Part shown: positions 23,308-44,485 of the stretch, one piece after another
How the letters are laid out: the number at the start of each line of letters is the position of its first letter
Position numbering within the stretch: the first letter of the stretch is position 1
Source: Caldicellulosiruptor acetigenus
GTDB lineage: Bacteria > Bacillota > Thermoanaerobacteria > Caldicellulosiruptorales > Caldicellulosiruptoraceae
Direction of reading: 5' to 3'
Assembly (NCBI RefSeq): GCF_026914305.1
Contig: NZ_CP113866.1
Span: 1,987,501-2,051,500, forward strand
DNA: 64,000 nt
The notes under the pieces: model-generated
Told to the model about the DNA's origin: nothing
The model's input: only the letters and a program-made list of their open reading frames with translations
Database searches by the model: none
Position numbers and translations under genes: made by a program

Positions 23308-23438
23308 TTATCCTCATCTCTCAGAAAGCCAAATTATTTTGCTTTCTGACGGAGTTGGCACCATTGCAAAGCCAAAAGCTTTGCCGGTTGCCGGGTTTCA
23401 TCGGGCCTTTTTCCCTCCACCTCTCTTGATAAGGATAA
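23308..23438 (-). promoter_or_regulatory. SAM-I (S-box) riboswitch aptamer
   Basis: Minus strand reads TTATCCTTATCAAGAGAGGT at the 5' side, then GGCCCGATGAAACCCGGCAA, GGTGCCAACTCC, and closes with GATGAGGATAA. P1 pairs TTATCCTTATC with GATGAGGATAA (one G-T pair). These are the conserved core blocks of the S-box. It sits about 110 nt upstream of metK. Confidence 0.95.
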
Positions 23439-42726: not shown

Positions 42727-43980
42727 CTACAGCAGCAGCTTTCTTTTCATCTTCAACAGTTCGTATACAATGTCGTTTATAATGACAACTCCAATGAGTT
42801 TCTTGCTTTCGTCCACAACAGGCACAGCAAGAAGGCTATATTTTGAAATAATCTCAACAAGGGAATTAACATTGTCAGTGTCTTTGACACAAACCACGTC
42901 TCTGTTCATAATCTCATAAAGCGGTGTTTGAGGCTCAGAGATTACCAAATCACGCAAAGACACAACCCCGCAAAGCCTTTCATCATTGTCAACAACATAC
43001 AGGTAATAAATTTCATCTGGTTCAGGTTTTAAGCGTCTTAGCTCCTCTATTGTCTGCTCAACTGTGAAATGTGTCTTGAATGAGATAAAATCGGTTGTCA
43101 TTATCGCACCAACACTGTTTTCGGGATACTCCATAAGTTCTTTGACTTCTTCTGATGCTTCTTTCTCCATGCTGTTTAAAAGCTCTTCTGCTCTTTCTTC
43201 TTTTATCTCGTCAAGAATATCTGCAACTTCATCAGCCGGCATCTTCTCAAGTGCATCCGCCGCCTTTTCAACAGGAAGACTCTCTAAAACATTTCTCTGT
43301 GCTTCAACTTCAAGCTCTTCCAAAACATCTGCAGCCTTTTCATCATCCAGGGTAGAAAAGATATAAGCCTGCGTCTTTTTGTCAAGCTCTTCAATAATGT
43401 CTGCCAAATCCGAAGGATGCAAGGTAGCAAGCTTTGAATATGTGGTTGAAAGCTTTAAATCAAGCCTCGGAGATGCAAGCGGCTGTACATCATCCCACAA
43501 AATCAAACGCGAAGGAATGTTTTTACCAAGCGGTTTTAACACCTTTTTCAGCGGCTTTGCAAGACCAAGCCTTCTCAAAAGCCCTTCAAGACCGATATCT
43601 ACAGCTATTACATAAACACCTGTAGAAAGTACTGCAAGTCTTATATCATTTACCCTTACAACTTTTCTGCCGTTCATATCAACAATCTGCTTGTCAAGTA
43701 TATGACGAACAAGCATAATGGTGTCTTCTTTTTTCACATCGATTGGCTTTAAGTTCCTTGTTTCAATCACGTACTGACCTTTTTCCTTGTAGATTATGAA
43801 AAACGAAAAGTCCACAATTTGAGTTCGACCGCCACTTTTTACCTTTGCAGCAATTACTTTTGGTCTTATATAACTTGCATCAACAACCAAGTCTAAAAGC
43901 CTTCCTACAACCTTCTTTTCTTCTGAAAAGACCTTGTTGCCGATTACTCTGCTAAGATAAAAGCTTGTGACATTTGGCAT
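42727..43980 (-). CDS. free-standing MgtE-like Mg2+ sensor: PRC-like, MgtE_N and CBS-pair domains
   Basis: 417 aa, soluble. About 1-170 resembles two PRC-barrel-like modules (SRVIGNKVFSEEKKVVGRLL; VDMNGRKVVRVNDI). About 180-285 is an MgtE_N superhelix of acidic repeats (LHPSDLADIIEEL, LDDEKAADVLEEL, LPVEKAADALEKM, MPADEVADILDEI). About 290-417 is a CBS pair (GAIMTTDFISF, EIMNRDVVCV, AVPVVDESKKLIGVV). In MgtE these domains gate the channel according to cytoplasmic Mg2+. The MgtE membrane domain is missing and the next gene is an NRAMP-like transporter, so I infer a regulatory subunit. The start ATG has GGAGGGG seven bases upstream, within the repeat copy described below. Confidence 0.85.
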   Translation of the reverse strand: MPNVTSFYLSRVIGNKVFSEEKKVVGRLLDLVVDASYIRPKVIAAKVKSGGRTQIVDFSFFIIYKEKGQYVIETRNLKPIDVKKEDTIMLVRHILDKQIVDMNGRKVVRVNDIRLAVLSTGVYVIAVDIGLEGLLRRLGLAKPLKKVLKPLGKNIPSRLILWDDVQPLASPRLDLKLSTTYSKLATLHPSDLADIIEELDKKTQAYIFSTLDDEKAADVLEELEVEAQRNVLESLPVEKAADALEKMPADEVADILDEIKEERAEELLNSMEKEASEEVKELMEYPENSVGAIMTTDFISFKTHFTVEQTIEELRRLKPEPDEIYYLYVVDNDERLCGVVSLRDLVISEPQTPLYEIMNRDVVCVKDTDNVNSLVEIISKYSLLAVPVVDESKKLIGVVIINDIVYELLKMKRKLLL

Positions 43981-44113
43981 TTTAGCACCCCTCCTTTTTT
44001 GAATTTTTTGTAACCTCGTGGAGGGGTGCTAAAAGCCTTTAAAATCTATTTGCAAAAGGGTGTATCCATCCCTTTATTTGCTTCAAAGCAGGTAAAAATT
44101 AGCACCCCTCCAC
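43980..44113 (-). promoter_or_regulatory. three-copy complementary element around the mgtE-like ribosome site (possible translational switch)
   Basis: Reading the minus strand: copy 1 GTGGAGGGGTGCTAA (44113-44099), copy 2 in inverse sense TTTTAGCACCCCTCCAC (44034-44018), copy 3 GGAGGGGTGCTAAAA (43994-43980). Copy 3 holds the ribosome site and the A of the ATG. Copy 2 can pair perfectly over 15 bp with copy 1 (66-nt loop) or over 15 bp with copy 3 (25-nt loop), but not with both. Pairing 2:3 would hide the ribosome site; pairing 1:2 would free it. The sequence relations are exact; the switching role is inference. Confidence 0.75.
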
Positions 44114-44174
44114 ATTCCAAAGTACAATTGCTTTTTGTTGTCCAATCCTGCTTACTCACAGGACCAGAATCCAT
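44046..44174 (-). CDS. putative 42-codon Cys-rich leader ORF
   Basis: ATG (44174) to TAG (44046), 42 aa with four cysteines (positions 17, 21, 29, 41). AAGGAG lies 12 nt upstream, a long spacing, within a weak hairpin with TTCTT. The frame reads through copy 1 of the complementary element (encoding CGGVL) and stops between copies 1 and 2. A translating ribosome would thus mask copy 1 and let copy 2 pair with the ribosome site of the next gene. It may be a regulatory leader peptide, or a chance frame; no homologue is recognised. Confidence 0.35.
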   Translation of the reverse strand: MDSGPVSKQDWTTKSNCTLECGGVLIFTCFEANKGMDTPFCK

Positions 44175-44240
44175 CTTTTCTCTCAACTCCTTCTTTAAGA
44201 AGAATTTTCGCAATACCAAAATTTTTATACATTGCTATTA

Positions 44241-44288
44241 GAAACAAAAAGTGCTTTCACCCAAAGCTTAAAAACGAGGTGAAAGCAC
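44241..44288 (-). terminator. M-box controlled intrinsic terminator
   Basis: Stem GTGCTTTCACC / GGTGAAAGCAC (44251-44261 with 44278-44288), then TTTTTGTTTC on the minus strand. The 5' arm contains ACCTCG, complementary to CGAGGT in the 3' strand of the aptamer's P1, giving a clear antiterminator alternative. Confidence 0.88.
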
Positions 44289-44308
44289 ACTTCTGCCCTT
44301 TTCAAAGC

Positions 44309-44457
44309 TACCTCGTACAAGCTTTGGCACTACACGGCATAAAAAGCTGCATTAGGTTATGCCTTGGTTTCGGCAAAACCTGTTCACCAGCTCAGATTGT
44401 CTCCAATCTTTCGCGGCAGCAGCCTATATCCCTGTAGGAGCCTCGCCTACCGAGATA
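44309..44457 (-). promoter_or_regulatory. M-box (ykoK) Mg2+ riboswitch aptamer
   Basis: The minus strand shows the conserved blocks GGTAGGCGAGGCTCCTACA, GGCTGCTGCCGCG, ACCAAGGCATAACC and GTGCCAAAGC. P1 pairs TATCTCG (44457-44451) with CGAGGTA (44315-44309). With the terminator just downstream, high Mg2+ should switch off the sensor and transporter genes. Confidence 0.93.
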
Positions 44458-44485
44458 TCTTGCAATATTCATTTTTTCAACTTCT

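Follow-up and report, generated by a model that had tools for sequence, protein, structure and literature searches.

In ermC-type translational attenuators, the position of the ribosome on a leader ORF selects among RNA pairings that mask or free the ribosome binding site (RBS), and antibiotic-induced stalling opens it. The mgtQ attenuator of mgtB in Salmonella is also translational: a short upstream ORF (uORF) carries early acidic residues, Asp2 and Glu5, which destabilise the ribosome, and alternative stems determine whether the RBS of a Mg2+ importer gene is accessible (PMC8092293). In the mgtL leader of mgtA in Salmonella and E. coli, the acidic/proline N-terminus EPDP destabilises the ribosome (PMC11282234), Mg2+ counters this destabilisation (PMC11552253), and two mutually exclusive folds are formed. 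Full translation of mgtL at high Mg2+ corresponds to the OFF state and drop-off at low Mg2+ to the ON state, the output being Rho-dependent transcription termination (PMC11282234, PMC11552253). Translation of the corL uORF likewise represses a Mg2+ transporter gene, corA of E. coli, through Rho-dependent transcription control (PMC11552253). Sensing of Mg2+ by ribosome stability is so far known from these few enterobacterial leaders (mgtL, mgtQ, and probably corL). In the leader of M. tuberculosis pe20, an M-box is followed by short uORFs and controls the translation of uORF2 (PMC12810186). An M-box also precedes the nrmT operons, which combine a gene for an MgtE-like fragment with one for an Nramp-related Mg2+ importer, as described in the main text of the corresponding report, where neither a leader ORF nor a second switch is mentioned (PMC4072509).

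The window, i.e. the whole 64,000-nt stretch of Caldicellulosiruptor acetigenus DNA that was analysed, contains an operon of the nrmT type behind an M-box, with a leader that may combine several of these features. Similar to mgtL, full translation of its uORF at high Mg2+ is predicted to be the OFF state, and drop-off at low Mg2+ the ON state. However, the output here would be masking of the RBS, whereas mgtL acts on transcription and has no M-box. The mgtQ leader has four segments, and a ribosome on its region 1 opens the RBS, whereas the present leader has three, and by pairing logic a ribosome on the first should close the RBS. In addition, mgtQ sits inside an operon without a riboswitch, the importer family and the phylum differ, and no sequence shared with mgtQ was found. 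Stalling opens the RBS in ermC-type leaders, whereas here the RBS should open when the ribosome is lost early or pauses. The corL leader has no three-copy RBS switch, and in pe20, control of the following gene by the uORF via alternative RBS pairing was not demonstrated. The original prediction described a two-layer Mg2+ leader of this design as new. This is too broad, as Mg2+ leaders with a uORF and alternative structures (mgtL, corL, mgtQ) and an M-box followed by uORFs in M. tuberculosis (PMC12810186) are known. Nonetheless, a search of the open-access literature, with subscription papers outside its reach, revealed no description of these leader ORFs, of the combination or of its spread. 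The joining of MgtL-like polarity, MgtQ-like output and a three-copy RBS switch, as well as its distribution, is thus apparently new.

Organisation of the operon and its leader

The Nramp-family gene of the operon adjoins the MgtE-N/CBS gene, with the M-box upstream, which is the layout of the nrmT operons (Table 1). The predicted specificity of the Nramp-family protein is that of the NrmT type, and it is probably a Mg2+ importer. The M-box aptamer reached 127.5 bits (cut-off, 44), and is the single match to this family in its genome. The expression platform consists of a 12-bp hairpin with a T run after it (z -3.6), which was overlooked by a pattern scan because its loop exceeds 8 nt. This is in agreement with the complete M-box with its own terminator that had been proposed originally. 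An ordinary S-box SAM riboswitch (RF00162, 83 bits) is also present in the window, at positions 23311-23435 of the minus strand.

Table 1. Coordinates of the regulated genes and of the leader elements in the window.
Feature	Position	Strand	Remarks
M-box Mg2+ riboswitch aptamer (layer 1)	44305..44461	minus	RF00380, 127.5 bits, E 3e-28
Intrinsic terminator of the M-box	44242..44291	minus	GUGCUUUCACC/GGGUGAAAGCAC stem, then T run; fold z -3.6
Shine-Dalgarno sequence of the leader ORF	44187..44190	minus	AAGGAG, 12 nt 5' of ATG; GGAG invariant in 13/13 family leaders
Leader ORF	44046..44174	minus	MDSGPVSKQDWTTKSNCTLECGGVLIFTCFEANKGMDTPFCK; 42 codons, begins MDSGPVS; ATG at 44174, stop 44048-44046
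Copy 1 (anti-anti-RBS)	44113-44099	minus	GTGGAGGGGTGCTAA; inside leader ORF, +62..+76 from ORF start
Copy 2 (anti-RBS)	44032-44018	minus	TTAGCACCCCTCCAC; exact reverse complement of copy 1, 13 nt past leader ORF stop
Copy 3	43994-43980	minus	GGAGGGGTGCTAAAA; RBS of first operon gene, reaching into ATG at 43980
Regulated gene 1, PRC-barrel + MgtE_N + CBS protein, 417 aa	42727..43980	minus	Pfam MgtE_N 7.6e-28, CBS 7.9e-20, PRC 2.4e-6
Regulated gene 2, Nramp-family transporter, 415 aa	41446..42693	minus	Pfam Nramp 4.6e-106

The three 15-nt copies on which the original prediction was built were confirmed in the sequence, on the minus strand and with the last one running into the ATG of the first gene. 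The 13-mer common to them, GGAGGGGTGCTAA, has three sites only, in the window as well as in the whole 2.74-Mb genome; the chance expectation for the window is 0.03 sites, even allowing one mismatch. The middle copy was claimed to pair over 15 bp with either outer copy. This holds fully for copy 1, whereas the pairing with copy 3 has a perfect core of 13-15 bp and continues in the predicted fold with GGC/GCC past a one-base bulge. The resulting helix has 18 pairs, and therefore also encloses the start codon. Folding of the leader exceeds that of its shuffles (z -5.4).

Copy 1 is contained within a leader ORF that possesses its own Shine-Dalgarno sequence, a feature absent from the original prediction. 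The N-terminus encoded in the window, MDSGPVS, has one acidic residue and is in this respect weaker than EPDP or MDDDPA.

Conservation in the family and in distant relatives

The family set comprised 12 genomes of the genus and one of a sister genus, in which the protein of the first gene is 75% identical. The original prediction had expected relatives with the gene pair to keep the copies and to show compensated changes in them. The aligned leaders largely agree with this, as each of the 13 family members has retained the gene pair together with the three copies. Copies 1 and 2 pair in 98.3% of cells, with three pairs changed on both sides, a level reached by 3 out of 500 shuffles. Copies 2 and 3 pair in 98.1% of cells, with one two-sided change, and compensation is weak here (67 out of 500 shuffles). 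In L008, GTGGAGGAGTGCTAA occurs together with TTAGCACTCCTCCAC, and in L013, CTGGAGAGGTGCTT together with AAGCACCTCTCT; G-U pairs keep the RBS copy pairable.

Copies 1 and 2 are better conserved than the frame of the leader ORF, in which conservation is confined to the N-terminus MDSGPV. The ORF start ATGGAYTCTGGYCCTGTG is invariant in the 13 genomes save for synonymous changes, which in codons 1-6 are GAT/GAC and GGT/GGC, and this start element occurs once per genome, at this site only. Past about codon 7-11 the frame drifts via indels, and all 13 ORFs still end in or beyond copy 1. A conserved start with a drifting frame is expected if nothing in the ORF counts other than its first residues and the ribosome's movement across copy 1. 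Two other ideas, a larger leader peptide and a bacteriocin-like function, were dropped given that the C-terminal frame is not conserved.

The comparison was extended to the upstream regions of 93 relatives of the first gene outside the genus, from Bacillota, Bacteroidota, a Kapabacteria MAG, a spirochaete MAG and others. A uORF starting with ATG and encoding M-D-x-x-P, or close to it, was found 90-215 nt upstream of the gene in 73 of these loci, and the strict uORF was missing at 20. Shuffled upstream regions contained a mean of 1.0 such uORFs (maximum 6), and elsewhere in these loci 8 out of 685 windows had one. The consensus of the uORF is M-D-[D/S]-[G/D]-P-[A/Y], with starts such as MDSGPY, MDTDPDG, MDGDPN, MDPEPA, MDDGPA, MDDDPA, and MDAGPG. 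Asp2 and Pro5 are each present in 70 out of the 73 uORFs, and Asp is often found at positions 3 and 4. The search with an 18-nt uORF pattern gave 28 matches in 26 operon-bearing genomes of the Bacteroidota type, twenty-six of which correspond to this uORF. When other Bacteroidota genes marked by the pattern were sought in 296 random genomes, the matches that were examined proved to be HsdR-like coding sequence or chance. The M-box is present in the Bacillota leaders, and was not found in the tested leaders of Bacteroidota and of the Kapabacteria and spirochaete MAGs.

Desulfosporosinus acididurans harbours two copies of the operon, one (L035) with an M-box and an MDTDPDG uORF, and a second (L037) without a recognisable uORF, so that nature itself provides the comparison within one genome. 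A NiCo riboswitch (L039:5108-5193) follows the M-box of an MgtE-N gene at a distance of about 2.7 kb.

The three copies recur in distant leaders with different letters, for instance as CGTGGGGGGAATTTTGACT / TCAAAAATCCCTCCATA / ATGGAGGGATTTATT in Desulfosporosinus and as AGGAAGGATGTATGTCCA / GGCCATGCATCCTT / GGAGGATGCATT in L015. Among 47 non-redundant loci, the pairing of copies 2 and 3 (2:3) is individually significant against dinucleotide shuffles in 31, that of copies 1 and 2 (1:2) in 29, and both in 20. When segments were swapped between these loci, own segments paired more strongly than swapped ones, both for 1:2 (-18.2 vs -11.6 kcal/mol, z -13.9) and for 2:3 (-16.8 vs -12.4 kcal/mol, z -11.4), in windows that were set post hoc from the geometry already seen in the same loci. 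The swap test was significant separately within Bacillota and within the remaining loci; in an earlier swap test with another window placement, 1:2 was not significant outside Bacillota. In loci with significant 1:2 pairing, the first nucleotide of copy 1 is at +34..+61 from the start of the uORF. The uORF stop lies no more than 10 nt from copy 1 in 25 out of these 29 loci and past the end of copy 1 in seven, the two counts overlapping.

What the comparison shows is an MDxxP uORF that carries copy 1 in its body or at its stop, and a copy 2 with two alternative predicted partners, copy 1 and the RBS of the first gene in the importer operon. The conserved Shine-Dalgarno sequence and MDxxP start, together with a copy 1 that overlaps or abuts the ORF end, are the features of a putative leader-peptide attenuator.

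Folding and proposed mechanism

Swap tests, covariation, and shuffles argue for two mutually exclusive structures, one of which masks the RBS, and the translation-attenuation logic of the original prediction is supported by the family comparison and the swap tests. Folding with copy 1 masked had been suggested as a check. At 37 °C equilibrium the closed hairpin is favoured with or without the mask in all genus members but L010. Masking of the uORF in all loci had a small effect in the predicted direction (+0.03 vs -0.04 in shuffles, p 3e-10). The idea of a switch driven by thermodynamics only was dropped, as uORF masking gave no large opening or closing of the RBS at equilibrium in the genus. 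Caldicellulosiruptor grows near 70 °C, and at this temperature 1:2 and 2:3 have equal energies in the window (-23.0 and -22.4).

Since the equilibrium at 37 °C favours the closed state, the switch has to work kinetically or during transcription. As long as copy 3 has not been made, the predicted fold of the window transcript is 1:2, and in the pairing model a ribosome on the uORF leaves 2:3 as the sole option. A U run is absent after the 2:3 hairpin, which points to a translational output.

We consider that the locus probably carries a translational attenuator run by a Mg2+-responsive, MgtL-like leader peptide, which would act after the transcription control by the M-box. The leader ORF is likely the driver that sets the switch. 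When Mg2+ is sufficient, ribosomes would read the entire uORF and cover copy 1, copy 2 would pair with the RBS and the start codon, and the operon would remain untranslated (OFF). When Mg2+ is low, the weakened ribosome would drop off or pause at the acidic/proline MDxxP, at least 35 nt before copy 1. Copy 1 would then be free, 1:2 would pair once copy 2 is transcribed, and the RBS would emerge open (ON), a state that at 37 °C would be reached co-transcriptionally. Both layers would turn the importer on at low Mg2+, the M-box at transcription and the uORF switch at translation. Mg2+ is the suggested signal because the genes downstream encode Mg2+ importers and follow Mg2+ riboswitches, and because early acidic/proline residues destabilise ribosomes in MgtL and MgtQ. 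That it is sensed by ribosome drop-off we infer from MgtL, MgtQ, and CorL.

It is conceivable, although unlikely, that the same switch responds to another signal, with MDxxP acting as a regulated arrest peptide, or reporting on EF-P or charged tRNA-Pro, instead of sensing Mg2+ by drop-off. Copy 1 starts at +34 or later, so that a ribosome held at codons 3-6 would not reach it; copy 1 would stay free, with the same ON state as the result. Proline is kept at position 5 in 70 out of 73 uORFs, and proline charging is a signal for mgtP and mgtL (PMC3641672). However, the uORFs mostly have a single Pro, with acidic residues alongside and no Pro-Pro, and the importers downstream, as well as the position of the Bacillota copies behind Mg2+ riboswitches, point to Mg2+.

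We regard it as improbable that copies 1-3 form an RNA-only switch, ligand- or temperature-driven or purely kinetic, to which the ORF is incidental. Such a switch would fit the equal energies of 1:2 and 2:3 at 70 °C and the conservation of copies 1 and 2, which is better than that of the ORF frame. Nevertheless, the amino acids of MDxxP are the same from phylum to phylum although the codons differ, and only synonymous change is seen within the family, while copy 1 overlaps the uORF or is in reach of a terminating ribosome. Furthermore, no conserved aptamer-like structure was found, the M-box was the sole Rfam family matched in the leaders tested, and a relaxed-threshold Rfam search of the leader returned chance microRNA-like matches only. 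That the 2:3 hairpin just holds translation low, with copy 1 as a remnant of local duplication, is hardly credible, since all three copies vary between lineages with complementarity retained and the 13-mer is found nowhere else in the genome, despite the dominance of the closed hairpin at 37 °C in all genus members except L010.

Spread of the leader ORF and other M-box genes

Under the Mg2+-responsive attenuator, these leaders could represent a cross-phylum class of Mg2+ sensors, a view to which we incline slightly. The ribosome would be the sensing element, and a uORF of the MDxxP consensus would govern translation of the importer via the three-copy RBS switch. This device would stand alone in Bacteroidota and in the spirochaete and Kapabacteria MAGs, and behind an M-box in Bacillota (NrmT, some corA, mgtE), as a Gram-positive and Bacteroidota counterpart of MgtL/MgtQ with two independent Mg2+ readings per transcript, one by the RNA aptamer and one by ribosome stability. 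If this is true, the use of ribosome stability for sensing dates back much further, or it arose more than once. Such sensing would have a recognisable N-terminal signature and guard a fourth importer class (NrmT). Bacillota would pair an aptamer with ribosome sensing of one ion, so that both could be compared on one mRNA, and the many natural MDxxP variants would be material for studying the N-termini that destabilise ribosomes and the counteracting effect of Mg2+.

The ysgD gene of E. coli K-12 (L183:5219-5275, upstream of corA), which we take to be probably corL, is annotated with 18 aa and a TTG start, and its product MDTPSRYW... has the M-D-(x)-P start in common with these uORFs. The N-terminal likeness to mgtL, mgtQ, and corL is short and likely convergent.

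Strict MDxxP-type uORFs were found at five out of 25 sampled M-box loci of the phylum with an identifiable gene, compared with a mean of 0.4 (maximum 3) in shuffles. These five include a further NrmT operon (L209). Three loci of one Bacillota family (L202, L204, and L210) possess a MDDPDAD or MDDPEAD uORF between the M-box and corA. Anti-RBS and anti-anti-RBS segments are clear in L202 and L210, and less so in L204. As judged from their sequences, these corA loci carry this device ahead of another kind of importer gene. The search for MDDPDAD in 299 Bacillota gave four matches, corresponding to the three known corA family members and L217. A METDPG uORF is located after the M-box ahead of one mgtE gene. 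In L189, the M-box is followed by the uORF MDADPEPQMDHPY (MDADPEP) and then by an ABC-transporter permease gene (Pfam BPD_transp_1), which is an unusual gene for an M-box.
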